DNA of 20,047 nucleotides from the IMG/VR virus record IMGVR_UViG_3300047409_000265, positions 1 through 20,047 of that record; one strand, 5' to 3'. The translations under genes and the position numbers were made by a program. The notes beneath the pieces were generated by a model. That model saw only the letters and a list, made by a program, of their open reading frames with translations, was not told where the DNA came from and ran no database searches. Source of the DNA: a virus. This document shows, one piece after another, positions 2,632 to 14,394 of the stretch (the stretch's first letter is position 1; each line of letters opens with the position of its first letter).

Positions 2632-3477
2632 TCAAGCCGGGGGCTTCGTCGCTCCGATCTTGGAGCCGACGCTCTCGGCGAGAGTCTTCGCCTTTTCCAG
2701 ACCGTGCTCGGTGATATACTTGCCTTGGTTGGTGATGTTCCAAGCCTCCTTGGACCATGGGTTGTTCGCCCGGCCGGCCGGTCCGCCGCTACCCCGCGAG
2801 CCGCCGCCGACAGAGGCAGGCCACCAATGCGGAGACTTGTCCTGCATGTCCTTGAACCATTCCTTGGGGGACAGCCCGGGGACAATTCCGGCGACATCCT
2901 TGGTGATGATCCGGCCGTCCTCGGTCACCTCGAAGACTTCGCGGCCGTAGCGGACCGCGTCGAAGATCGCCGTGGGCAACAGCTTCGCCTCGGCCGCCGC
3001 ATCGCGGATTGCGCGTTCGACGTTCGTGGTGACGATGGTCGTCTTGAGACTGGTAACCTCGCCGTCCTTGTCGATGAGGAGCTTCGCATTCGCTTCGAGC
3101 TTGCGCTCAAGGTTGGTCTTGTCGCGCTCCAGCGGAGCAACGGCCTGCTTGACGCGAGCCGCGATGATCGGCTCCAGTTTCGTCTCATCGACCCGGCCAT
3201 CCTTGTTGATGGCTTCGAGCTGCGCGGTAACCTCCTCCAGCTTCCGGGCCTGTTCGGCGACGGCCTCCGGATCGACACCTTCGAACGCCTTGAGTTGTTC
3301 GCGGGCCTCCTTGTGATCCTTCCGCTCTTTGACGAGCGCGCTTTGAACGCGGTCGACATCGGCCTGCGTCTTCACGCCTTGAACGCCGGTCAGCTCCCAT
3401 TTGCCGTTGCGCTCGGTGTAGAGCGCCGCGTAGCCCTCCGGGATTTCGTCTTCGGTATCGTATACGGTCTTCAACAT
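2632..3477 (-). CDS. Phage scaffold-like protein with central coiled coil
   Basis: 281 residues from ATG 3477, which has AGGAGA nine bases upstream; a longer frame begins at 3501 but lacks such a site. The N-terminus (MLKTVYDTEDEIPEGYAALY) matches a widespread phage family that begins with a short 'D.IPEG....Y' module. Residues about 45-150 are charged and heptad-rich, typical of a coiled coil. Then come a folded-looking segment (LLPTAIFDAVRYGREVFEV), a Gly-rich linker, and a C-terminal tail from about residue 239 (NPWSKEAWNITNQGKYITEH). Known: such proteins occupy the scaffold position just before the major capsid gene, and scaffold C-termini contact capsid subunits. Here the next gene encodes only 114 residues. 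Scaffold function is inferred from architecture and position. Confidence 0.8.
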   Translation of the reverse strand: MLKTVYDTEDEIPEGYAALYTERNGKWELTGVQGVKTQADVDRVQSALVKERKDHKEAREQLKAFEGVDPEAVAEQARKLEEVTAQLEAINKDGRVDETKLEPIIAARVKQAVAPLERDKTNLERKLEANAKLLIDKDGEVTSLKTTIVTTNVERAIRDAAAEAKLLPTAIFDAVRYGREVFEVTEDGRIITKDVAGIVPGLSPKEWFKDMQDKSPHWWPASVGGGSRGSGGPAGRANNPWSKEAWNITNQGKYITEHGLEKAKTLAESVGSKIGATKPPA

Positions 3478-3508
3478 GGTGGGTATCTCCTGCAACTCCA
3501 ACGCCGGA

Positions 3509-4012
3509 TCATTCCGGGCGCCGACCTCTCATGAGGGTTTTTCGTTTGATGAGCAATCCACGGCCGAGACCGTAAATGTGCTGTCGTGTAACCTCGGTAG
3601 CGCCGTTCGATCCATTCAGTCGCCGGCTGCCGATGACCCGATGCGCGATGTCCGTGTTGTCCTCGCCTGCGGTGAGGCCAACGCTGATCGCGGTCTGAAT
3701 ATTCTGCGCGTCCTGCTCTGCGATCATGCGCGCCCATGTCGCCATGGTGTGCCCGTGAACGCGAAGCGTCTTGCGCTGCCCGGTGCGGATACGATGCTTC
3801 GCCCACGCCGCGCCGTCGTGCTGATGCTCATCGTCGTCCTCGATCGGTGCCGGCTCCGACGCCTGCCCGGGGGCACGCAGCAAAACCATCTCGCCGTCAT
3901 CGAAGAGAATTTTGACGAGGCAGCCGGGCGCACCCTTGTCGACAGGCATGAAGGCGTCGTCGAAATAGGCGATGACCGCCTCGCGGCCGTCTATGGTTTG
4001 GCGCTCGATCAT
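3509..4012 (-). CDS. Short MuF-like minor head protein
   Basis: 167 residues. The ATG overlaps the preceding stop (ATGA). Residues 1-50 (ERQTIDGREAVIAYFDDAF) form a small module found with phage minor head proteins. An acidic linker follows (EPAPIEDDDEHQHDG), then a segment near residues 95-155 (IQTAISVGLTAGEDNTDIAH, then RVIGSRRLNG, then EVTRQHIYGLGRGLL) that resembles the gpF/MuF pattern of 'sI..Gl..G.....i..rv.G', ending in an 'R..i..L.R' helix. Full MuF proteins usually run several hundred residues, so this is a compact or split form. It lies between the effector-like genes and the scaffold, as expected of a portal-associated head-morphogenesis protein. The family call is moderate and rests on pattern. 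Confidence 0.6.
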   Translation of the reverse strand: MIERQTIDGREAVIAYFDDAFMPVDKGAPGCLVKILFDDGEMVLLRAPGQASEPAPIEDDDEHQHDGAAWAKHRIRTGQRKTLRVHGHTMATWARMIAEQDAQNIQTAISVGLTAGEDNTDIAHRVIGSRRLNGSNGATEVTRQHIYGLGRGLLIKRKTLMRGRRPE

Positions 4013-5004
4013 GCCGCCTTCTCTCTGTTTTTCCAGTGCGTCTGGATCGCGTCATAGAGCGCGACCCATTCCGGGGCCGGCTCGCTGTATTTGCTCGTCG
4101 GCCGTCCGGACAGAAACCGCGCCTCATAATTGGCGCGAGCGCGGAGCCGATCGAGCGAGGCTTTCAGCTCCGGTGGGAGCGTGCTCTCATCGATCGCGTC
4201 GCCCTTCCACACTCGCACCGCGTAGGTCGACGGCCTCTTGAAAGTGCCTTGGACAGTGTCCAGCGCAAAGCCCGCCGCTTTGAACTTCGGGCTCTCCGTC
4301 TCAAAACTGGCCGGCGCTGTATATGCGCGAGCCGTCATCTCCGCGATCGTCTCGTGCATCGCCTGATTGGTCTTGGCCACTCCATCGTTCCAAGACTTCC
4401 ACCATTCGCGGCTATACTCGGTGATCCCGTCGCTCTTCGCAAACACCTCTGTGACGCTCGGCGCCATGGCGCGCGAATATTCGTTATACGTCGGATACCT
4501 CTTGACGTACTCGCCTTTTAGCATGCCTCCCTTGTCGAACACCTCGGCGGCCTTGAAGAAGACGCCGTCCTCGTTCATCCGCTGGCGCTCGGTCTGGTAG
4601 TCGGCAATGAATCGCTGGAACTTCTGATGCCCTATCTCGTGCGCCGTGATGTCCGGAATGGTGGAAGGTTCAGCGATTGCCTTGGCGAAAAGCTCGATCC
4701 GCCCTGAGCCGTCCAGATACGCCGCGCCTGCATAGTCGTGCTGCATGCCGTTGAGTATGAACTTCTGCTCGTCGGTGCGAACCGTGATCAGTGTGGGGTC
4801 GTAGTCGAGATCGGCGGCGACGCGCTTTGCCGCGTCCTCGATCCGCTTCACATAAGCGGCGGCTCCGGCCTCGTCTGCCATCTCGTCTTCGTGCTTGACC
4901 CGCGCGAGCGCGCGATCGAACGCGTCGCCCTCGGCATCGGGCGAGGCGCCACCCGTCGTCCACTTGCCGTCGCGATCTCGTTTCTCATTCGGGTCAAAGG
5001 TCAT
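4009..5004 (-). CDS. Predicted HExxH zinc metallopeptidase with N-terminal 'DPNxxRxxxGKWT' tag
   Basis: 331 residues from ATG 5004, which overlaps the stop of the gene before it. The open frame continues to 5394, but the start at MTFDPNEKRDRDGKWTTGG is chosen because the overlap is tight and the signature is N-terminal in relatives. The tag is followed by an acidic linker and then a domain with the zincin motif AHEIGH (His122, Glu123, His126). A candidate third ligand is the glutamate in MHETIAEMTARAY, about 110 residues later. The C-terminal part is charged and unassigned. There is no signal peptide. Known: HExxH proteins bind catalytic zinc. Inference: a peptidase acting on host or virion protein, possibly carried in the particle. 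Activity is unproven. Confidence 0.75.
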   Translation of the reverse strand: MTFDPNEKRDRDGKWTTGGASPDAEGDAFDRALARVKHEDEMADEAGAAAYVKRIEDAAKRVAADLDYDPTLITVRTDEQKFILNGMQHDYAGAAYLDGSGRIELFAKAIAEPSTIPDITAHEIGHQKFQRFIADYQTERQRMNEDGVFFKAAEVFDKGGMLKGEYVKRYPTYNEYSRAMAPSVTEVFAKSDGITEYSREWWKSWNDGVAKTNQAMHETIAEMTARAYTAPASFETESPKFKAAGFALDTVQGTFKRPSTYAVRVWKGDAIDESTLPPELKASLDRLRARANYEARFLSGRPTSKYSEPAPEWVALYDAIQTHWKNREKAA

Positions 5005-5978
5005 TTGCGGCCCTCGTCCTGAGTCCACGCCGGCATCAGCCCGATCTTCTGCGGGGCGAACACGGTGTGCTCCGCGTCGGCGGTGCGGTTCTCCGCGCCG
5101 TGCGGTCCGAAATTGACCCACGAGTTTTGCCCACGCGTCTCGTTCGTCATCGCGCCCCGCGCCAGATCGGAGAACATGGAGGCGTGCACGCGCCACGCGT
5201 TCTCTTCGCCGTCCGCGCGGAAACCATTCCCCTCCTTGAAGTGGCCCATCATGTCGTGCACGATCCGGAACACGTCGTTGACGACGACCTTCCGGCCGCC
5301 GATGACCTCGCCTGTCTCGCGCAGCATCGGATTGTTCTTGCTCGTGTCGCCGCCGGCCGAGCCGTAGCCGAGATCGGTGGGGAAGCCCCACCAATGGTTA
5401 TTCTCGCTCACGTCCATCGCGGCGAGGCGCGGCGACAGAGCATAGGGGTCCTTCTGCCCGGGCTGCACCCAATCGACTTTCAGGCCGGTCTTCTTGACCG
5501 CCTCCCACTGCCCGAGCACTTCCTTCGCCAGCGCCTCATAGCTCGCCTTGACGGCGGGATCGTTCGGCGCGTTCACCTCGTGGTCATAGGCCTCGGCAAC
5601 CCGGGCGGCGCGCTCCTTGTCAACCTTGACGTAGGCCGTTGGCGGGTCGTACGGTATACCCGCGTCGCGCATGTAGGCCTCGGCCGCGTCCTTGAGGCGC
5701 CCGATCGGCCCGGGGACGTACCATTGGCCGTTCAGCTCGATCGGTTTCTGCGGGAGACCCTCCAGCGGCTTATATCCGGCCGCCACAAGCGCTGCCTGCG
5801 CGGCTGCGGCTTCCGGTGTCTCCGCGCCCTCATGCGCGCCAGCGCCCACCGGAAGGGCGTGGACGTTGATTGGCGTCTTGGTCACGATCGCGCTGGCCGC
5901 CGCGTCACCCTTGAGAGGGACATCCTGCGTGCCGAACTCGCCGTGGTTGTTGCGCGCCTGATTCGGGTTATAGGTCAC
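5001..5978 (-). CDS. Phage protein with 'HDxxGH...GEExAW..H...ETRGQNSWVNFGP' domain and N-terminal 'NPNQxRxxxG' tag
   Basis: 325 residues. It uses a GTG start at 5978 that overlaps the previous gene by 11 bases; the ribosome site is weak, so coupling is likely. The N-terminus MTYNPNQARNNHGEFG matches the tag of the next protein. Residues about 75-130 (LNGQWYVPGPIGRLKDAAEA) form one module. Residues about 235-292 hold the strongly patterned core FRIVHDMMGHFKEGNGF, GEENAWRVH and ETRGQNSWVNFGP. This core recurs in phage and mobile-element polyproteins. The His/Asp/Glu spacing (H241, D242, H246, E258, E259, H265) suggests metal binding, so a hydrolase is possible, but I know of no demonstrated activity. 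It sits with the metallopeptidase between portal and scaffold, as expected of a virion-carried effector. Confidence 0.75.
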   Translation of the reverse strand: MTYNPNQARNNHGEFGTQDVPLKGDAAASAIVTKTPINVHALPVGAGAHEGAETPEAAAAQAALVAAGYKPLEGLPQKPIELNGQWYVPGPIGRLKDAAEAYMRDAGIPYDPPTAYVKVDKERAARVAEAYDHEVNAPNDPAVKASYEALAKEVLGQWEAVKKTGLKVDWVQPGQKDPYALSPRLAAMDVSENNHWWGFPTDLGYGSAGGDTSKNNPMLRETGEVIGGRKVVVNDVFRIVHDMMGHFKEGNGFRADGEENAWRVHASMFSDLARGAMTNETRGQNSWVNFGPHGAENRTADAEHTVFAPQKIGLMPAWTQDEGRK

Positions 5979-6228
5979 TGGGCAGGTTGTCCCGTAGGTG
6001 CTTGAACGCCGCCTTGATATGCTGCGTTCGGATGTTGATGATCTGACGCGTCAGCTCGTCGCGGGTGAGCATGGCGTCGGAGACCTTGGTCCGGTTGATG
6101 CCAGCGACGTCCATCAGCCGCGTCTCAATTAGATCGCGGATCATGGGCTCGCTCGCGTCGAGGATGGCGACCGCCTCGTGCACTGTCGTGAAGATGTGCG
6201 TCGTGGCGGGGTCGCGGAGTTCGTTCAT
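5968..6228 (-). CDS. Small helical protein after the portal gene, unknown
   Basis: 86 residues from ATG 6228, overlapping the portal stop (ATGA). The sequence is predicted to be mostly helical (VHEAVAILDASEPMIRDLIE, then LTRQIINIRTQHIKAAFKHL) with no cysteines, signal or membrane segment. Its position directly after the portal and its helical content would suit a small portal-associated or head-completion protein, or a detached N-terminal piece of a MuF-type protein. I do not recognise the family, and no function is assigned. Confidence 0.65.
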   Translation of the reverse strand: MNELRDPATTHIFTTVHEAVAILDASEPMIRDLIETRLMDVAGINRTKVSDAMLTRDELTRQIINIRTQHIKAAFKHLRDNLPSDL

Positions 6229-7922
6229 GCGCCACCCTTCGTCTTGTTGGCCGACGCGCCCTTCTTGCCGACCTTGGTCTTCAAGGGTACAGGTGACCCA
6301 CGCGTGTAGCCCTTGTTACCCGCACTCGGCTTGACCGGAACGTTTGAGTTGGGCGGCACAGTTGTGGCGGGGGCCGCCGGAGGCTGTCCCGGAGTGGGAG
6401 CCGTTGGAGGCGTTCCCGCTCCCGATGCCGCGACTGGCGCCACATCGTCGTCCAAGAACGTGTCGTCAGTAGCTCCGGCGAATGGCGAGACCATCGTGCC
6501 GAGCATGGACGCGGCTTCCTCTTCGATTTGCTTGTTCTCTTCTTCAAAATCCATCTCCGTCATGTCGTTGAGCCGCATCATACGGTGCATCGATCGCAGC
6601 GACAGCGGCAGACCGAGTTGCTTCGCCTGCATGAAGGCGAGGAGCGCGGCGCCGGCCACAGTCTGATCCGCGAAGTCGGTGGTCGGGACAACCGAGACCT
6701 CGTTCGGGTCTTCGCCCATCCAGATCGCGCAGTGCTTGAGCGCTTGCTCCAGCCCGGCGCCGCCGGTCTTCGCCACGGTGGCGATCGTCGTTGTGCGCGC
6801 GGCCACGCGCACGCGCAAGGCCTCGCCGCTCTGTCCTGCATCGGTCGTCACGTCGAGAAACGCGTTACCCTCGGCCGCCGCCTGCTTCTTGTCGTTCTCC
6901 AGCGAGGTCCGCATTTCACTGAGCCCGCCCGGAGAGACGCCGATATATTTCGCGTCGCCGCCGAGCCGCACATCGATGACAGCCTTGTTTCCGACCCGAA
7001 TCTTATCGGGGGAGGCCTCATCAACATTGCCGTTGACGATGACGAGCGTATTCTGCCCCTGCAAGAAAAGCGTCTGCCGATAGTCGGCTTCACCGCGATA
7101 GATCGCGAGAGCCAGATTCGACAGCGCGAGCAGCGGAGAAACCTCGGGCTCTGGCACGAGATCATTCGCGCCGATAAAGACGAATGGGATGTCAGTAAGC
7201 GCCTTTCCGCCGATAGACGGAAAGAAGAACTCGTCAGGCGTCGGATCATTCGTGTCGTTGACCTTGACCGCCATCGCGAAGCCTTCCAGCGGACGGCCTT
7301 CGGTGTCCGTCACGATGGCGCCGTCGTCGCGCGAGAGGATGCGAAATTTCTGTTCTGTCTTCCAATTGAAGCCGGTTCGCCGATAGCCGCTCTCGTCGAG
7401 CACGACCATCTCCAGCAGGTTCATCCCCTCGTCGAGCTTGCCCGCGTCCCAGTTGATGATGCTCTCGGCGCTGTAGAGCGAGAGATACGGGAGCGCCTTG
7501 TTGATGTCAGCGCCCGCCGGGACGTCGCAGAGAAGACCACACCGCCCTTTCAAGAGCTGATTGACATTGATCCGACGCAAAAGATTCTGGAGACCCTCGC
7601 CCTGAACCGTGGCGCTTGTCATCATGCCTTCCATCCGCTTCGGAAGCTTGATGACCGCCGGCTTGCTGTGCATGATGCCGATCATGGCTTTCACGGCGTC
7701 CTTGACGACATCGTGGAAGACCGCGCGCATCAAGTACGCGTCGTAGTCCTTCCATCCCGGGGCCTGCGGCGAGGTCATGCCATCTTGGATCATGCCCTCC
7801 GTCGCGGGCAAGTAATCGAGACGCTTCCCCTTGACGGCGCGCTCCCCCGCGTACGTGTCCGTGAGCTGAATCCACTCACCGAGACGCGCGACAAATTCCG
7901 GATGCTTATCAGTGATCGCCAT
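6225..7922 (-). CDS. Portal protein, DUF4055 type
   Basis: 565 residues from ATG 7922, with AGGA about seven bases upstream; an in-frame start at 7958 lacks a comparable site. The N-terminus (KHPEFVARLGEW, then YAGERAVKGKRLDYLPATEG) and the order of later motifs (ALPYLSLYSAESIINWD, FVFIGANDLVPEPEVSPLLA, LALAIYRGEADYRQTLFLQG) follow the DUF4055 phage family, a portal-like family placed next to terminases. The C-terminus is a long Pro/Ala-rich then Lys-rich tail (residues about 500-565), probably disordered. Known: the portal is the dodecameric ring through which terminase pumps DNA. It lies 66 bases after the large terminase, and a small GGGGC-ctc-GCCCC hairpin sits in that gap. The call is solid. 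Confidence 0.88.
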   Translation of the reverse strand: MAITDKHPEFVARLGEWIQLTDTYAGERAVKGKRLDYLPATEGMIQDGMTSPQAPGWKDYDAYLMRAVFHDVVKDAVKAMIGIMHSKPAVIKLPKRMEGMMTSATVQGEGLQNLLRRINVNQLLKGRCGLLCDVPAGADINKALPYLSLYSAESIINWDAGKLDEGMNLLEMVVLDESGYRRTGFNWKTEQKFRILSRDDGAIVTDTEGRPLEGFAMAVKVNDTNDPTPDEFFFPSIGGKALTDIPFVFIGANDLVPEPEVSPLLALSNLALAIYRGEADYRQTLFLQGQNTLVIVNGNVDEASPDKIRVGNKAVIDVRLGGDAKYIGVSPGGLSEMRTSLENDKKQAAAEGNAFLDVTTDAGQSGEALRVRVAARTTTIATVAKTGGAGLEQALKHCAIWMGEDPNEVSVVPTTDFADQTVAGAALLAFMQAKQLGLPLSLRSMHRMMRLNDMTEMDFEEENKQIEEEAASMLGTMVSPFAGATDDTFLDDDVAPVAASGAGTPPTAPTPGQPPAAPATTVPPNSNVPVKPSAGNKGYTRGSPVPLKTKVGKKGASANKTKGGA

Positions 7923-7988
7923 GGTCGATCCTATCTGGGGGCGAGGCCCCTGTAGCACTGTTAACCACGAAATGCAATAGCCCTTGAC

Positions 7989-9572
7989 TTACGTCGTGCG
8001 GCCTGACTTCAGCGTCTTGATCTCGTAACGCAGCATGTACCGGGTCTCATCCCCGTTGTGATCTTCTGCCTCGTCATCGACATCATCGATCTCTTTCTCG
8101 TCCCTCGGCAGCACGGGCACGCACCGAAGCCATTGGACGCAGTCGCTTGAGATGAACAGACCGGGCGTCTCGCGGAAGCCGCCTTCCGGCCGCTTCGTCG
8201 CCTTGAGCCGCTTGCGGACTTGCTCCCAACCTTGTTCGCGCGAGTGCGGGGACTTGTCCGCCTTTTCCCAGAAGACGCCGCGATGCTTGACCCCGTTGAC
8301 CACGACCGGCTTCTCAAAGTCGTTCGCGATCGTGATCTCGGAGCCGTTCAGGTTCTCATCGAAAATCTGGCTATCGGCCGGGCCTCGGCTTACGCGGGTC
8401 CACGAGGCATCGGCCGCGCGGAGGCCCCATTTGATTTCACGCTCGATAATGCCCTTCGCGATCTCCGTGGTGATCATGCGCACGCCTTCGTTCGGCTGCC
8501 CGCGCCACCCGTACCACTCCTTGATCCGGAAGAGATCACCGCGCACTGTCGCGCGAATGCGCCCGTCGCGGAGCTTCAGATCGGTCCCGTCGCTCATCGC
8601 GTACCAGCCGACAGAGAACGGCTTTGACGAGCCGTGGTCGTAGGCCCGATAGATTTTCCAGCTCGTCGGCACGTCGAATGGGTCCATGACAATTGTGTCG
8701 CGGTACTCATACCAGATGTCATCGAACATGCCGCCCGCGACGATGTCCCACGAGCCGTCCATCCATGCGGCCAACTCCGACGCGTTACGCGCGGCTGCCT
8801 TGATGCGCCCCTTGTAGCCCGGGTCCGCATGCAGCAAGAGCAAATTCTCGTCGAGGTAGCCGTGAATGGCACGACGCGGCGGCTCCGCGTTTCCGTGCTC
8901 GTCAACGCTGTCCGTGATGACCGGGCCGACAGTCGGCTTGCGCCCGTTGATCGTCTCGCCGCTGATCGGGAGACGAAAGCGCGCCTTGACCCAGTTGTGG
9001 CCCACGCCGTACGGGTTCGTCGTCGCGCGGATTTTGCGCGGCATACCTTTCATGGTCGACCGCGAGCACGAGAACATGACCTTGTAGCAGTCAGGCGTCG
9101 CCCACGTCGTCAGCTCCTCCCAACCGATCCACGGATAGGCGTGGCCGTGGTAGTCGCTATACTGGCTCGGCGCGTTGAAGTGGGCGAAGTAGAGCCGCTC
9201 ACCATCCGGCCATTCCCACATCGTCTTGACTTCATTGTAGACGGCATCAGGCCAGATGCGCTTGATCCATTTCTTGGACTTCTCGATCACGTCGCGCAGT
9301 TGAGGATGAGACTGTCGAAACAGAATGCCCTTCCACTCCGCGCCCCAGCCCTTGCCGACTTCTTGGCAGAAGTCCATGATCAGCGCGTCGGTTTTGCCGG
9401 GGCCGCGCGTGCCCTCGTAGAGCACCTCGATCGTCGGGTCCGCTAGGAAGAACTCTTGTGAGCCGGGTTGCGGCGCCCAAGCGACTTGGCGGAGCACATT
9501 GTTATCGTCATAGACGAATGGAACGTACTCCGCACCGATCCTCTTGAACTTCGCGACGCAAGGCCACCCCAT
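7989..9572 (-). CDS. terL: Terminase large subunit (DNA-packaging ATPase-nuclease)
   Basis: 527 residues; the start codon overlaps the small terminase stop by one base (TGATG). Residues 54-61 GTRGPGKT are the Walker A motif, residues about 147-153 PWIGWEE carry the Walker B-like aspartate-replacing pattern with the catalytic glutamate, and TTNP at about 184-187 is the coupling motif III. The C-terminal nuclease half shows YRAYDHGSSKPFSVGWY (Asp312 as a RuvC-like metal ligand) and AADASW (Asp388). The length is normal for the family. It cuts concatemeric DNA and pumps it through the portal encoded next. The order small terminase, large terminase, portal is classical. The call is firm. Confidence 0.93.
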   Translation of the reverse strand: MGWPCVAKFKRIGAEYVPFVYDDNNVLRQVAWAPQPGSQEFFLADPTIEVLYEGTRGPGKTDALIMDFCQEVGKGWGAEWKGILFRQSHPQLRDVIEKSKKWIKRIWPDAVYNEVKTMWEWPDGERLYFAHFNAPSQYSDYHGHAYPWIGWEELTTWATPDCYKVMFSCSRSTMKGMPRKIRATTNPYGVGHNWVKARFRLPISGETINGRKPTVGPVITDSVDEHGNAEPPRRAIHGYLDENLLLLHADPGYKGRIKAAARNASELAAWMDGSWDIVAGGMFDDIWYEYRDTIVMDPFDVPTSWKIYRAYDHGSSKPFSVGWYAMSDGTDLKLRDGRIRATVRGDLFRIKEWYGWRGQPNEGVRMITTEIAKGIIEREIKWGLRAADASWTRVSRGPADSQIFDENLNGSEITIANDFEKPVVVNGVKHRGVFWEKADKSPHSREQGWEQVRKRLKATKRPEGGFRETPGLFISSDCVQWLRCVPVLPRDEKEIDDVDDEAEDHNGDETRYMLRYEIKTLKSGRTT

Positions 9573-10351
9573 CAGTCATCCTCTTCGAACGTGACGGCCG
9601 GGCGTCCCTCACGTCGATAATCGGCTTCCATCTCGTTGAGGGCTTCGGCGGTCTCCGCGCGCACACCGACGACGAGCACGCCGCCCCGGACGTTGACATC
9701 GACCTGAGCTTGTTTGCCGTATTTATCCTTCATGCGCCGTTCCATGATGAACATCATGAGATCGGGGTCCTGCTTGAACACGGTCTCCGGGACCGGAGCG
9801 CCGAACTCGTCTTTCAGGTAGCAGTCGGCGGTGTTATCGGGGAGCCCAAGCTCTCGCGCGAGCGAGACCTTTTCAGGATCGAGCTGATAGATGACGCGGC
9901 CCTGATAGGTCAGGACTTCACGATAGCCAACTGCTCGCCTAAACGCGGCGGCCTCTACAAGCTGGAGGCCGCCTTCGATCGCATTTTCAAATGCCTCGTG
10001 AAACCTAACCGGGAGCGGCTCGTCGCCTTCACCGTCGAGGACGACATCAAAGCCATCCCCCGGCCGGCCCTCCTTGCTCTTCTGGAGCCAGTATTTGAGC
10101 GTCGTCGAGCTGATGTTCGCGCGCATGCAAATGCTGTTGACGACCGGCATTTCGGCCGCGCTCCGGATGATCTGCTTCAAGCGTTCTGGGGTGTTTTTCT
10201 TGGGTGGGACGATGACGATCTTCTGAGAGCGCTCTAGCAGCGCGCGGCTCGCCTTGCCCATCGGGCGGGATTTCGGTTTTGGCTTCGGAGCCTCCGGGAC
10301 GACCGGGTCCGGCCCGAGCATATCTTCGAGATCGATGTCTTCGCCGCGCAT
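9572..10351 (-). CDS. terS: Terminase small subunit (DNA recognition)
   Basis: 259 residues from ATG 10351, with AAGGA eight bases upstream; a GTG at 10396 in the same frame is less likely. After an acidic, Pro/Lys-rich arm comes a helix-turn-helix-like stretch (MPVVNSICMRANISSTTLKY), then the helical oligomerisation region (FHEAFENAIEGGLQLVEAAA, AVGYREVLTYQGRVIYQLDP) and the typical DPDLMMFIMERRMKDKYGKQ segment leading into a beta strand. Known: small terminases bind the packaging site and present DNA to the large subunit. Position immediately upstream of the large terminase supports the call. Confidence 0.85.
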   Translation of the reverse strand: MRGEDIDLEDMLGPDPVVPEAPKPKPKSRPMGKASRALLERSQKIVIVPPKKNTPERLKQIIRSAAEMPVVNSICMRANISSTTLKYWLQKSKEGRPGDGFDVVLDGEGDEPLPVRFHEAFENAIEGGLQLVEAAAFRRAVGYREVLTYQGRVIYQLDPEKVSLARELGLPDNTADCYLKDEFGAPVPETVFKQDPDLMMFIMERRMKDKYGKQAQVDVNVRGGVLVVGVRAETAEALNEMEADYRREGRPAVTFEEDD

Positions 10352-10424
10352 GCGGATATTCCTTCCACAGTCCTCGGCAATCTCACATCGCCGCACCTCG
10401 CCTCATGCGGGGTTTTATGCGAGA

Positions 10425-10809: not shown

Positions 10810-11109
10810 TCACCTTTGGAAGGACTTGGGGTTGGCGGGGACAGAGGCCCGACGTACGTTTGCAGTCGGGAACGCATGCGCCGTATTCGGGGCCTTCATC
10901 CCGGATGCAGGCGCATATGGCTGGGCAGACACCTTGCGGGTCTGCCCGTCATTGTCTTCGGCCGGCAACGAGACCTTGGGCAGAAAGCCCGAGGTCGTGT
11001 GTTGACCGGGGAGATCGCTTGATGGTCCCGGATAGCCGTTCTGACCATACCGATTGTTCGGCTTCAGGTGCGAGCCCGCGATGATGGTATCACTTTCGAA
11101 GGTCGTCAT
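10810..11109 (-). CDS. Small Pro/Gly/Asn-rich protein, unknown
   Basis: 99 residues from ATG 11109, with AAAGGA nine bases upstream. It ends three bases before the exported-protein start. Low-complexity, polar and proline-rich (NNRYGQNGYPGPSSDLPGQH, SAQPYAPASGMKAP), it is predicted to be largely disordered. It has no cysteine, signal or membrane segment. It does not carry the GHGS tag of the upstream cluster. The function is unknown; a virion-associated flexible protein would fit the setting, but nothing shows this. Confidence 0.6.
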   Translation of the reverse strand: MTTFESDTIIAGSHLKPNNRYGQNGYPGPSSDLPGQHTTSGFLPKVSLPAEDNDGQTRKVSAQPYAPASGMKAPNTAHAFPTANVRRASVPANPKSFQR

Positions 11110-11124: not shown

Positions 11125-11436
11125 TTAGTACATCTTGCCGAGGTTCGCGGCCTCCGAGAGGACGCGCGAGCCGAGGTCGTGATCGACGGCGCCCTTCATG
11201 CCCCACTTGGTGGCGGGCTTCGGAAGGTGCTTCATGCCGGGGCACGGGGAGAGGGGATTCGCTGGGGCCGCGTCGGGACCAACACCCGGGTTGGTCGGGC
11301 TGACGCCCGCCATCTCGGCGGTGCGGTCGCGCATGGTAACGCGCGGCGGGAACGAGGTCTGGGGCCGCTTAGCCGCGCCATCACGGGCGATGTTGCTGGA
11401 AGTCTGGTCAGTCATGCCGGTGTGAGTTGCAACCAT
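11125..11436 (-). CDS. Small basic Pro-rich protein downstream of the tagged cluster, unknown
   Basis: 103 residues from ATG 11436, with GAGGG about eight bases upstream; the frame extends to a TTG at 11472 and a second ATG lies at 11415. The N-terminal half is polar and probably disordered (ARDGAAKRPQTSFPP, SPTNPGVGPDAAPANP). The C-terminal half (MKHLPKPATKWGMKGAVDHD, LGSRVLSEAANLGKMY) may fold into a short helical unit. It sits between the GHGS-tagged genes and the terminases. No family is recognised. Confidence 0.6.
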   Translation of the reverse strand: MVATHTGMTDQTSSNIARDGAAKRPQTSFPPRVTMRDRTAEMAGVSPTNPGVGPDAAPANPLSPCPGMKHLPKPATKWGMKGAVDHDLGSRVLSEAANLGKMY

Positions 11437-11508
11437 GATACGGCCCTCGCGAGTGATAGGTTTTCGCGTCAAGCATATCCGGCCGGGCCGAGGATCACAA
11501 CTGGCAAG

Positions 11509-11955
11509 TTAACCCGTGCCGCCCGTCCGGATTTCCCGCATGCGTTTCACGTCCCAGATCGCGATCTGGTTATGCCTCTTGCCGGCGGAAACCGCCGCGC
11601 TCCGGCCGGAGATGTTGTGCGAGACGTCGAGGTAGGTCTTGCCCGATTCCTTGTCGGTCCAACCGCCGATGTGCGCCCGGGGATCACTGAGCACGTCCGC
11701 GTGCTGGCGCGCGTACTCGCCAATGAGACGGGCGCCCTGCGGACCGCGAAGGTCTGCCTCGGAAACGATCTGCGTGTGCCCGGGGATCGAAACCATGTAG
11801 CCGGCTTTCGGCATGACGCCGTTCGTCGGCCGCACAGAGAAACCGCCCGGGTTCTTGGTGATCGTTTTGAGCACCTTCGGATGAAGCTGGACGTTGGCGA
11901 TCTTCGCCACGCCCGAGTTGTGCGCGTTACTGCCGTGCCCAAGTGCGTCTTTCAT
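11509..11955 (-). CDS. GHGS-tagged protein with conserved 'HIGGWxD...YLDVS' phage domain
   Basis: 148 residues, ATG overlapping the previous stop (ATGA). The N-terminal tag is MKDALGHGSNAH. The payload ends with ARQHADVLSDPRAHIGGWTD, then KTYLDVSHNISGR and HNQIAIWDVKRM. This 'IGgW...g..YLDvs.n......A...g..nQ.aiwD' pattern is recognisable from phage accessory proteins and polyproteins, but I know of no assigned activity. It has no signal peptide. It is the last of six consecutive genes sharing the tag. Inference: a small effector or virion-cargo protein. Confidence 0.75.
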   Translation of the reverse strand: MKDALGHGSNAHNSGVAKIANVQLHPKVLKTITKNPGGFSVRPTNGVMPKAGYMVSIPGHTQIVSEADLRGPQGARLIGEYARQHADVLSDPRAHIGGWTDKESGKTYLDVSHNISGRSAAVSAGKRHNQIAIWDVKRMREIRTGGTG

Positions 11956-12443
11956 TTGCGTGGCCTCGCGTATTGACGGAATGCGGTCATGACGTGCTCG
12001 GGAAAGGACTTCCCGGCCTTCATCCCCGCGTGAACCTCGGAGACGAACTCTTTCGGATTCATCGCCGCGTATTTGGAAACGTGCTGCCGCGCCATGTCTT
12101 GGTGATCGAGCGTCATGAAATTATCCGGCGGATCGTAGAGCACATGGCCGATCTCGTGATGGATCACGTGCTCCGGAACTTGGGATGAGAGGTTCGTCGA
12201 GCGCGCCGCAGAGCCAACCGGATCGCGCCAGAACTTCGAGTTCTCATTGAGGCTGATACCCCGCCAATCGTGATAGGCGACGCCGGAGCCTACCGACTTG
12301 ACGATCACGGCCTCGTGCCCGTTCTCGCGTGCGATCTGTTGAGCGAGCGCGAGGTTCTTGGCTTTGTTCTTCGTCCACTGGCGCCCGATCGCGGCGACGC
12401 CCGCGCCGTGCGCGTTGCTGCCGTGGCCGAGTGCGTCTTTCAT
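11952..12443 (-). CDS. GHGS-tagged predicted HExxH metallopeptidase
   Basis: 163 residues. The tag is MKDALGHGSNAHGAG. The payload carries VIHHEIGHVLYDPPDNF (His96, Glu97, His100) followed by NPKEFVSEVHAGMKAGK, where Glu132 or Glu136 could be the third zinc ligand, as in gluzincins. The pattern 'HE.GH ... Y...n..EF.sE' is typical of small phage metallopeptidase-like proteins. It has no signal peptide, so it would act inside the host or be packaged. The first 45 nucleotides match the neighbouring gene at 12930 except for two silent changes, although the payloads differ. Confidence 0.78.
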   Translation of the reverse strand: MKDALGHGSNAHGAGVAAIGRQWTKNKAKNLALAQQIARENGHEAVIVKSVGSGVAYHDWRGISLNENSKFWRDPVGSAARSTNLSSQVPEHVIHHEIGHVLYDPPDNFMTLDHQDMARQHVSKYAAMNPKEFVSEVHAGMKAGKSFPEHVMTAFRQYARPRK

Positions 12444-12447
12444 CTTG

Positions 12448-12930
12448 TCACCGATCGTAAATGTTGCGGGCCGGGAGACCCGTCAGCCGGGCGTGCTCTT
12501 TGGCGTGACGGTCGAACGCGGCGCGCGTGTTGTTGCCATACTCGCCATAGCGGTTTTGACCGACGTGGAATGTGTCTCGGAGCCGGCCCATCGCACCCTC
12601 ATGTTCGGCGATTTTCTTGTCGAAGTGCCGCGCATCGTCGGCCGACAGCTCGGCGCCCGTGTGCGTATCGCGAACGCCAAGGAAATAGCCGTTGCCCGAC
12701 CCCGCATGTTCTTGCGCGACACCCTGCATCTTCCCGGTGATCATGGAGCCGGCCTTGCCGCTGGCAGCTTTCAAGCTGTTGTGCGAGGAGATGACCTTCT
12801 CCTGCCCGATATGCTTCCCGACCTGTCCGGCCGCGAGCGAATAGGGCTTGACGATGACCTGATAACGCTTGCCGACTTGCGCGATGCCCGCGCCGTGCGC
12901 GTTGCTGCCGTGACCGAGTGCATCTTTCAT
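12448..12930 (-). CDS. GHGS-tagged protein, unknown payload
   Basis: 160 residues with AGGTAGG upstream of the ATG. The tag is MKDALGHGSNAHGAG, almost identical to that of the next gene. The payload begins KRYQVIVKPYSLAAGQ and contains GNGYFLGVRDTHTGAELSAD, then a helical, charged region (DARHFDKKIAEHEGAMGRLR) and an ending rich in Arg/His (RAAFDRHAKEHARLTGLPAR). I do not recognise this domain. The beta-then-helix layout looks like a folded enzyme-sized domain, but no catalytic motif is clear. Confidence 0.72.
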   Translation of the reverse strand: MKDALGHGSNAHGAGIAQVGKRYQVIVKPYSLAAGQVGKHIGQEKVISSHNSLKAASGKAGSMITGKMQGVAQEHAGSGNGYFLGVRDTHTGAELSADDARHFDKKIAEHEGAMGRLRDTFHVGQNRYGEYGNNTRAAFDRHAKEHARLTGLPARNIYDR

Positions 12931-12936
12931 GGTGGC

Positions 12937-13197
12937 CTACCTGATCCGAATGAGTGAGTTGGGGTTGTCGACCCGCGCGTTCATAGCGATCCGTTCGGCG
13001 ACCGCGCGGCGCTTGGGACTGGAGACCTTCTGCCAGACGTTGCCGGTCGTGGTGACGCGCTGACCGGCCGCCGTGCGCCCGGCATACGCCACGTGCTTTT
13101 CGACCTTGAGCTTCGGCCCGACCGCGCGGCGCACGCCGGTCTGATGTACGACCTTGAGGCCGTGCGGGTCGCTGCCGTGTCCTTGTGCGTCTTTCAT
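12937..13197 (-). CDS. GHGS-tagged small basic protein, unknown
   Basis: 86 residues from ATG 13197; the same frame is open further upstream to 13629, but the tag marks the start, in line with its five neighbours. The tag reads MKDAQGHGSDPHG, with Gln in place of the usual Leu5. The payload is strongly basic (GVRRAVGPKLKVEKHVAYAG, SPKRRAVAERIAMNARVDN), which would suit binding nucleic acid or a capsid interior, though this is inference. It is the shortest member of the tagged set. Confidence 0.68.
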   Translation of the reverse strand: MKDAQGHGSDPHGLKVVHQTGVRRAVGPKLKVEKHVAYAGRTAAGQRVTTTGNVWQKVSSPKRRAVAERIAMNARVDNPNSLIRIR

Positions 13198-13237
13198 GAA
13201 CCAACCATCCCACGCCCGGGTAAAGAAAAGGTAAACG

Positions 13238-13792
13238 TCAGCCGCGCCCGCGCAGGAGCCGGTGAATGGCCGATGCTTCCTTGGCGCCGATCTTGCCGGT
13301 TCGGTTGTTGGCAATGGCTTTGCTGACGCTCTCCGGGTTGTATCCGTGGCGGCCGACCGTACCATCCTTCCGACGCCCGAACTCGTCGAGGCCCGCCGTC
13401 CGGCTTTTGTTGTGCTCGCTGAGTGAGGCCTGCTCGCGCTGATACTCGTCATGCAGGCGGGCACGATCATTCCCTGACATGCCGCCGTGAACCGGAGCCG
13501 GCATCGACTTCTGACCGCTAGCGAGCGCTTCCGCAGCCGCCGGGCCGAGGTCTTGCGAGCCGCCGCGCTGCCGATAGCCGAGCACGCTCGCCGCGTCGTT
13601 GACCTGATCGAGGTACTTGTTCTCGGCATGGGGGCTGTGCCCGCGCATCGCCTCAGCCGCCTCTTTCGCGTCCCTCGCGATGTAGCGGAGTTCCGCGTCC
13701 GACTTCTGATGATAGGGATGGCCGGGAATCGGCTTGGCGAGTTTCTTGGGTCCGCCGCGCGAATTGCTGCCGTGGCCGAGAGGGTCCTTCAT
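13238..13792 (-). CDS. GHGS-tagged protein with conserved 'YHxKSDAELRYIxRDA...YLDQVNDA' phage domain
   Basis: 184 residues. The tag reads MKDPLGHGSNSRGG, the most diverged of the set. Residues about 25-78 contain HPYHQKSDAELRYIARDAKE, then AEAMRGHSPHAENKYLDQVN and ASVLGYRQRGG. This module recurs in phage structural and accessory proteins and is predicted helical; its function is not known to me. The C-terminal segment (YNPESVSKAIANNRTGKIG, then AKEASAIHRLLRGRG) is a second recurring motif. The middle is charged and may be a linker. This gene shows most clearly that the tag is attached to an independently conserved domain. Confidence 0.75.
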   Translation of the reverse strand: MKDPLGHGSNSRGGPKKLAKPIPGHPYHQKSDAELRYIARDAKEAAEAMRGHSPHAENKYLDQVNDAASVLGYRQRGGSQDLGPAAAEALASGQKSMPAPVHGGMSGNDRARLHDEYQREQASLSEHNKSRTAGLDEFGRRKDGTVGRHGYNPESVSKAIANNRTGKIGAKEASAIHRLLRGRG

Positions 13793-13796
13793 GGGC

Positions 13797-14144
13797 TCAA
13801 TCCTTCTTGACTGATGCGAAGCCGCGCGCCCGAAGCCGGGTCTTGAGGTCCGCGATCTCCGCCGTGGTCAGCGGAGCCGGATCGGACTTCGACGTGCCGG
13901 AGTGCAGCTCGCGAGCAACCGGATCGTTGGCGAGCTGTGCGGCAGTGTCGGAGCGGGATTTGTCCAAAGCCCTCGCGGCGGCCATGGCGCGATCGTACAT
14001 GATTTCCGAACCGGGCTTGCGCGTGATGCCATTGCCCATCCACTCGTGCGCGGCAGCGCGCTGCGCCCCGTTCTGCCCGCGAGCAATCACTTGGTGCATG
14101 CGCTGCCCGAGCGCGTCGCTGCCGTGTCCCAGTGCGTCCTTCAT
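13797..14144 (-). CDS. GHGS-tagged helical protein, first gene of the tagged cluster
   Basis: 115 residues from ATG 14144, with GGGAAG upstream; the frame stays open further upstream, but the tag marks the start. The tag reads MKDALGHGSDALG. The payload is helical and charged (QRMHQVIARGQNGAQRAAAH, then YDRAMAAARALDKSRSD) and ends LTTAEIADLKTRLRARGFAS. No catalytic motif is visible. It begins the run of six tagged genes, four bases downstream of the small basic protein gene at 14149-14394. Confidence 0.7.
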   Translation of the reverse strand: MKDALGHGSDALGQRMHQVIARGQNGAQRAAAHEWMGNGITRKPGSEIMYDRAMAAARALDKSRSDTAAQLANDPVARELHSGTSKSDPAPLTTAEIADLKTRLRARGFASVKKD

Positions 14145-14148
14145 GGCG

Positions 14149-14394
14149 TCACTTCCCGATGTTATGGTAGGTGGTGTCGTGCTCACCGAGCACCGCATCA
14201 GCCTTGTGCCTGATCTTCGCAGCCTGCTCCGGCGAGAGCTTGCCCTTCGCGACCATCTGGGTCGCGCGGGCTTTGGCGTTGGCAGCGTGCGCCGGATCGG
14301 GCATCGGATACTTTCCGGGCTGACCCTTCTTGGGCTTGATGCCGAACTTGCCGGCGGGAATGTTCTTGCGCTGGGCGGCGGTCAGCTTTGCCAT
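14149..14394 (-). CDS. Small basic protein of a widespread phage family ('LTAxxRxxxPxxxFxxP...HAANAKARATQ')
   Basis: 81 residues from ATG 14394, with GAGGG eight bases upstream. The sequence opens MAKLTAAQRKNIPAGKFGIK, then YPMPDPAHAANAKARATQMV and KLSPEQAAKIRHKADAVLG. This pattern occurs as a stand-alone small protein and as a domain appended to larger phage proteins, often near head genes. It is highly basic, with a helical second half. The exact function is not established, so only the family resemblance is claimed. Confidence 0.72.
   Translation of the reverse strand: MAKLTAAQRKNIPAGKFGIKPKKGQPGKYPMPDPAHAANAKARATQMVAKGKLSPEQAAKIRHKADAVLGEHDTTYHNIGK

Follow-up and report, generated by a model that had tools for sequence, protein, structure and literature searches.

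Six adjacent genes on the minus strand of a phage of soil origin, at positions 11509 to 14144 of the complete IMG/VR virus record IMGVR_UViG_3300047409_000265 (20,047 bases; the whole record is referred to here as the window), begin with one short shared peptide, termed tag 1, and continue into unrelated payloads. Tag 1 is probably an N-terminal signal that loads injected effectors into the phage head, since one label heads small, basic, effector-like proteins encoded beside the packaging genes and also sits inside proteases that build the head. A preliminary description of these genes had proposed a tag-plus-payload module, and this is now strongly supported, as the payloads are unrelated, the tag is predicted to be disordered and is conserved at the protein level, and the same payload occurs under different tags. 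Its further suggestion of a shared sorting signal is supported, indirectly, as regards a head-related role, by protease fusions, gene position, basic charge and effector-type payloads, whereas loading itself is something that we infer.

Each of the six open reading frames (ORFs) has an ATG start and its own stop codon, and the gaps between neighbours range from -4 to 40 nucleotides. As first described, all six start MKD..GHGS(N/D), with M1, K2, D3, G6, H7, G8 and S9 invariant, the DNA stretch CACGGCAG is identical in 6 of 6 genes, and the first 45 bases of the two genes starting at 12443 and 12930 (43 identical) differ by silent changes only. A degenerate tag pattern has six matches in the window record, on one strand only, and none when read backwards; across 15 related whole records the corresponding counts are 100 and 0. 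After the tag is trimmed off, all 15 pairs of payloads fall at an hhalign probability of 2.6% or less, and the best pair, 13238 and 13797, aligns over just 14 columns at ...KS.PAP..., a second recurrent short module. The earlier statement that nothing obvious is shared past about residue 15 is refined in that three members stay alike to about residue 20 (H..G(V/I)). The possibility that the payloads are diverged homologues is ruled out by hhalign for the six genes and by distinct Pfam families in the wider set of tagged proteins.

In order of transcription, gene 1 (13797-14144, tag at 14106-14144) encodes 115 residues with an isoelectric point (pI) of 10.0 and an unassigned payload; neither Pfam nor PHROG gives a match at E ≤ 0.01. 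Gene 2 (13238-13792, tag at 13754-13792; 184 residues) carries the helical SDAELRYI payload, the short module KS.PAPVH and a C-terminal KEASAIHRLL segment, and gene 3 (12937-13197, tag at 13159-13197) encodes a very basic protein of 86 residues (pI 11.7). The payload of gene 4 (12448-12930, tag at 12892-12930; 160 residues) has no relatives within the tagged-protein set, while that of gene 5 (11952-12443, tag at 12405-12443; 163 residues), a zincin-like protein with a HEIGH motif that matches Pfam Peptidase_M57 at 14.2 bits, below the cut-off of 21, has relatives in two other loci. Gene 6 (11509-11955, tag at 11917-11955 and predicted disordered; 148 residues) bears the YLDVS payload, which corresponds to a region of phrog_3170.

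The spread of tag 1 among uncultured phages was assessed in a set comprising the window and 80 IMG/VR loci (at least 80 match a degenerate DNA pattern that required a start codon, and several come from one contig); loci of this set and of further scans are designated here by L numbers. The tag-1 core is N-terminal in 255 of 255 distinct ORFs of this set, whose loci were picked with a start codon; the IMG/VR scan was therefore repeated without that requirement, and 95 of 102 distinct GHGS-encoding matches have a start codon within four codons. The expectation that the tag would always be N-terminal is borne out in the lineage that carries the arrays but not in other phages, whose longer proteins contain it internally. 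The consensus reads M(A)KDA(K/L)GHGS(N/D/E)xRGG, at the head of proteins with a median length of 127 residues, and the information content is 4.3 bits at the invariant tag residues and less than 0.6 bit from 14 residues past the lysine onwards. The arrangement also recurs across loci, in the order 81-residue gene, array, 115-residue gene, 99-residue gene, terminase small subunit (TerS), terminase large subunit (TerL) and portal. Tags lie on a single strand in 79 of the 79 loci where the core was read, with 1 to 11 tags per locus; 12 long contigs have 89 tags between them, of which 84 are grouped in a single cluster on each contig. Where an array has a YLDVS gene of the gene 6 type, that gene closes the array in 26 of 31 cases.

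Outside these viral loci, a stricter tag pattern run against a bacterial and archaeal genome collection hit one contig, L087, in a Hyphomicrobiales metagenome-assembled genome, with tagged ORFs at 2182-2505 and 2910-3224; the contig may be either a prophage or a mis-binned phage contig. The tag-1 peptide has no match in the cultured-phage and plasmid collections, and the peptide of a further tag, tag 4, likewise has none, both searches being limited by BLAST filtering and a short query. Two of the six window proteins, those of genes 2 and 6, were compared with cultured phages by tblastn. Gene 2 has a single weak match, whereas for gene 6 there are matches of about 30% identity in 207 records; the 30 gene 6 alignments listed all begin at query residue 19 or later, past the tag. 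No description of the tag-1 label was found in open-licence papers.

The payloads under tag 1 turn over quickly. The 250 payloads of at least 25 residues fall into 96 groups, 56 of them singletons, and the mean Jaccard overlap in payload families between phages is 0.16 at a TerL identity of 80-90% (74 pairs) and 0.03 at 50-60% (113 pairs). Family scans covered 150 of 176 non-redundant tagged proteins, the 26 shortest being left out, and found ART-PolyVal in three, GNAT in two, and Arr-ms, HNH_3 and ParB_N in one each. An HNH endonuclease with tag 1 at its N terminus is seen at L070:8076-8528. The tagged proteins are also markedly basic, with a median pI of 9.87 and 90% above 8.5 (n = 238), the six window members ranging from 9.6 to 11.7, as against 5.2 to 6.7 for the TerS, TerL, portal and scaffold of the window and a median of 5.46, with 22% above 8.5, for 32 small proteins of three cultured phages taken as a control.

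The same payloads can stand behind other labels, and the YLDVS payload of gene 6 is found under three different ones. Tag 2 heads two larger proteins of the window, one of 325 residues (5001-5978, minus strand; YNPNQARNNHGEF) that matches another part of phrog_3170, and one of 331 residues (4009-5004, minus strand; FDPNEKRDRDGKW) that has no PHROG match. The headers of both are of the FDPNxxRDxxGKW type. Since the latter protein has a second HEIGH motif, the window phage seems to carry zincin-like domains under two labels. Three different frames from other loci, 611, 1,148 and 1,169 residues long (L161-L163, L164 and L168), have the YLDVS payload after tag 2 and match the tag-1 payloads at E 1e-24 or better. 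Tag 2 has 44 matches across the loci, compared with two for a reversed control, and its peptide matched 14 records of cultured phages (13 of Mycobacterium) with E values of 2-4; the one such match that was inspected lies at the start of an annotated capsid maturation protease, and these matches are treated as leads only. A further label, tag 3, is seen in L149, which belongs to the same lineage as the window phage (TerL 64%, 115-residue gene 60%). Four array ORFs of L149 start with tag 3, M(A)W(S/T)DEARxAA..AR, tag 1 is absent from that locus, and the payload of each of the four matches tag-1 payloads, along its full length in the YLDVS case (E 7e-56). Single copies of tag 3 are also interspersed among tag-1 genes, as in L056 and L021.

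In other phage lineages, internal copies of tag 1 occur inside longer proteins, some of which are head-maturation proteases. In L103, tag 1 comes after a domain that scores 28.3 bits for DUF2213 (cut-off 22) and also matches PHROGs of head-maturation proteases, and the same arrangement is seen in L105, phrog_760 being matched in both proteases. In L121, tag 1 lies within an XkdF/Peptidase_S78_2 protease (65.6 bits, cut-off 24) that also holds a tag-2-like stretch, a GHGSNPKGG copy and tag 3. Read by eye, L175, L203 and L206 continue a DUF2213-like protease. The gene that precedes the L103 protease encodes a MuF protein in which tag 2 lies well towards the C terminus, and a 197-kilobase contig has eight tag-1 copies in several proteins, adjoining a 1,600-residue protein (L093:439-5238) with ART-PolyVal over the Pfam cut-off and two tag-2 copies. 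Possible inteins (Pfam Intein_splicing, below cut-off) were observed just past the MuF region in the MuF-type head proteins L103:4216-7818 and L093:439-5238.

Such fusions may be read differently. In head-protease polyproteins the tags could be spacers or processing sites, marking the places at which segments are separated, and copies at free N termini would then be trimmed off or be relics. In L103, L105 and L121 the tags do stand between a protease domain and the segments after it, and the dipeptide K-A directly precedes tag 1 in 14 of 17 distinct internal contexts, a count raised in part because one scan, which supplied many of them, required K-A. Nevertheless, Peptidase_S78_2 and Peptidase_S78 were found on none of 12 array-lineage contigs, although these contigs may not be complete and the search for DUF2213 lacked a working control. 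In that lineage the tag is nonetheless common as a free N terminus that has nothing ahead of it to be released. Because no S78 or S78_2 protease was found on those contigs, docking looks likelier than cleavage in the array lineage, and processing is an unlikely account of the tag.

Docking could also take place elsewhere, with tag 1 bringing proteins to some other common partner in the infected cell, of host or phage origin, such as a DNA-bound or membrane hub, unrelated to the head. Basic payloads could bind DNA, and tagged proteins do bear further recurrent short modules of a docking type. One of these, approximately AAxxLxxGxKSxxxPVHxxM, lies mid-protein (window 13238-13792; L011:5-466, L059, L085, L031 and others); its strict core is present in 41 of 258 tagged ORFs, 12 of 12,844 other ORFs and none of the shuffled tagged ORFs, and several untagged carriers sit within arrays. 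Another, HxxG(V/I)xx(V/I/L)(G/P), often follows the tag (window genes starting at 11955, 12443 and 12930; L149, L008 and L024) and is present in 58 of 258 tagged ORFs versus 4 of 12,844 others, while in untagged array genes it may be N-terminal, internal or C-terminal. The position of the array next to the packaging genes and the occurrence of the same label within head-maturation proteases speak against a partner unrelated to the head, and this alternative is considered still less probable than processing.

In an AlphaFold2 model of gene 6 (27-sequence alignment), 114 of 148 residues have a predicted local distance difference test score (pLDDT) of at least 90 and residues 1-18 are below 50, with the tag at about 40 and the payload at 88-95; in the model of gene 2, residues 6-14 are below 50, the overall predicted template modelling score being 0.39, which is of low confidence. 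The YLDVS payload has no PDB structure match at E ≤ 0.001 and no PDB sequence match, its best VIA-align Z being 3.9 over 73 residues at 3.6 Å, and among its 22 BFVD matches (E ≤ 0.001) are large phage proteins, of which one is annotated as XkdF; the weak structural match is no proof of a new fold. The tag codons vary synonymously, with a codon identity of 0.564 within a locus, 0.524 between loci and 0.452 expected from payload codon use. Since the tag is predicted to be disordered and its codons vary synonymously, it is read as a flexible peptide under selection at the protein level, conserved as protein rather than as DNA.

The preliminary description had also raised a recombination-prone start region, in which the shared start would be a cassette or common ancestral start for swapping payloads and the peptide would have no function. 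Fast payload turnover and the 43 shared bases of the two window genes would suit such a cassette, but synonymous codons vary, copies from one locus resemble each other barely more than copies from different loci do, six residues are invariant, internal copies exist at no start codon, and another label replaces tag 1 on the same payloads, so that this idea is much weakened and has little chance of being right. A-rich first codons are usual at gene starts, and early tag codons are indeed A-rich relative to the payloads (GCA makes up 65% versus 14% of Ala codons, and AAA 61% versus 30% of Lys codons), but a translation-start or nascent-chain element is scarcely credible for a tag that recurs inside long proteins far from any start and in which conservation is at the level of residues and not of bases. 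Both alternatives are largely rejected on the grounds of codon statistics and internal copies.

If tag 1 is a head-loading signal, it would act as a short linear address that recruits small, basic, mostly single-domain effectors into the assembling prohead by binding a head component, which may be the scaffold, the portal or the capsid lining. The tagged proteins would then travel in the virion, enter the host with the DNA and possibly act on the host or its defences, and the array between the 81-residue and 115-residue genes would be an exchangeable effector island in which the label is kept and the payloads are swapped. A broader and more tentative proposal, which we regard as possible though doubtful, is that tailed phages use a small code of interchangeable labels, each read by a cognate head component and able to head any effector, and acting on free genes or as segments of head-protease or MuF polyproteins; its members would be KDAxGHGS, R(D/N)xxG(R/K/E)(F/W), W(S/T)(D/E)EARxAA..AR and perhaps GGPGSGP.

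A number of observations weigh against head loading or complicate the picture. According to a mechanical gene caller, 22 arrays contain 94 untagged ORFs alongside 143 tagged ones, the majority of tagged payloads have no recognised domain, and the tagged HNH nuclease may be no more than a homing enzyme. A basic charge is shared by the three border genes (those of 81, 115 and 99 residues), so that charge marks the region and not the tag alone, and the two tag-2 proteins of the window are acidic (pI 5.6). The protease fusions belong to other lineages than the array phages, and their assignments vary in firmness: the L105 match to DUF2213, at 20.1 bits, is just under the cut-off of 22, a PHROG labelled DNA methyltransferase is the top match of the L121 protease (E 4e-22), ahead of head-maturation-protease families (E 1e-8), the Mu_F, intein and 2H matches of L093:439-5238 are all under Pfam cut-offs, and the tagged proteins of L120, L116 and L118 have no family match. 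As for the other labels, the three shorter L149 payloads match tag-1 payloads across 47-53 residues only (E 7e-15, 9e-10 and 8e-13), and at least three of the 44 tag-2 matches are stretches of TerL-like ORFs rather than tags. Of 65 distinct tag-3 matches, no more than 20 are N-terminal, as judged by a start codon within three codons, and this figure is an upper bound because several starts are GTG valines inside longer frames.

Among known systems, the closest in logic is the capsid targeting (CTS) system of phage T4, whose internal proteins (ip) are loaded by an N-terminal signal and injected, according to the parts of two papers drawn on here (PMC12373910, PMC3012670). Both sets consist of small basic proteins with a short shared N terminus and otherwise unrelated, exchangeable payloads. 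The T4 internal proteins have 95-193 residues and a pI of 8.9-9.5, and ipII and ipIII are 92% identical over 13 N-terminal residues only, ipI being more weakly related (43% over 14). However, the best blastp match of ipI-III among the 255 tagged proteins has an E value of 0.49, the three tag patterns are absent from these T4 proteins, and the ip genes are found at two sites apart from the terminase, whereas here one array lies beside it; in addition, head loading is stated for T4 in those parts and deduced for the tagged proteins. The best explanation, by analogy, is that the tagged arrays work like the T4 capsid targeting system; they would not be members of it, because neither label nor payload is related in sequence. 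Phage polyvalent proteins, as treated in the portions of Iyer et al. 2017 (PMC5512222) used here, overlap in payload kinds (ART, GNAT, ParB-like and HExxH peptidase), are likewise proposed to be packaged and injected, and include MuF fusions. They differ in combining many domains in one long protein, whereas here there is mostly one per small gene behind a common header, a feature that goes unmentioned in those portions; the window proteins have 86-184 residues and at most one recognised domain each. The DUF2213 and XkdF/Peptidase_S78_2 head-maturation proteases, some of which hold tag 1 internally, share the tag alone with the window genes, which belong to neither protease family, the six tagged proteins having no such Pfam match. 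Finally, the Mesyanzhinovviridae (YuA) and phage RDJL3 have the closest cultured TerL (55-60%) and the same order of terminase, portal and head morphogenesis, but have no comparable annotated array in the stretches viewed, RDJL3 starting 498 bases before TerS. Kinship with RDJL3 and the one Hyphomicrobiales genome suggest that the host of the array phages is probably an alphaproteobacterium.

The following genes of the window all lie on the minus strand and are given in order of transcription. Leading up to TerL, the order is the 81-residue gene (14149-14394; phrog_16160), which is the fixed upstream border, the six tagged genes, the 115-residue gene (11125-11472), which is the fixed downstream border, the conserved 99-residue neighbour (10810-11109), another small gene, TerS (9572-10396; phrog_4044, E 2e-8) and TerL (7989-9572; phrog_979, E 2e-23; 59.7% to Roseobacter phage RDJL3). 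Past TerL follow the portal protein (6225-7958; phrog_145, E 7e-108), an 86-residue gene, the two larger tag-2 proteins, a head-morphogenesis protein (3509-4012; phrog_241, E 6e-8), the head scaffolding protein (2632-3501; phrog_206, E 1e-43), two small genes and a collagen-like gene (2-1930) of more than 640 residues that continues beyond the edge of the record; no major capsid protein gene was seen among the window genes. A basic protein of 88 residues at 1927-2193 repeats the C-terminal NPWSxExWNxTxQGxY segment of the scaffold, as if the scaffold end had been placed on another protein, and similar pairs are seen in relatives.

To our knowledge, proteins that are borne in the head and injected are known for few phages. 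Should the labels prove to be signals for head loading, small phage genes that are now unassigned could be sorted in their hundreds as candidate injected effectors, and the label would provide a portable signal for placing chosen proteins in capsids; since the same payloads occur under exchanged labels, the question lends itself to direct testing. Moreover, if the label code is real, packaged effectors would be recognisable from sequence alone, and the switch of a whole array from one label to another in concert, as in L149, would mean that labels and their receptors co-evolve.

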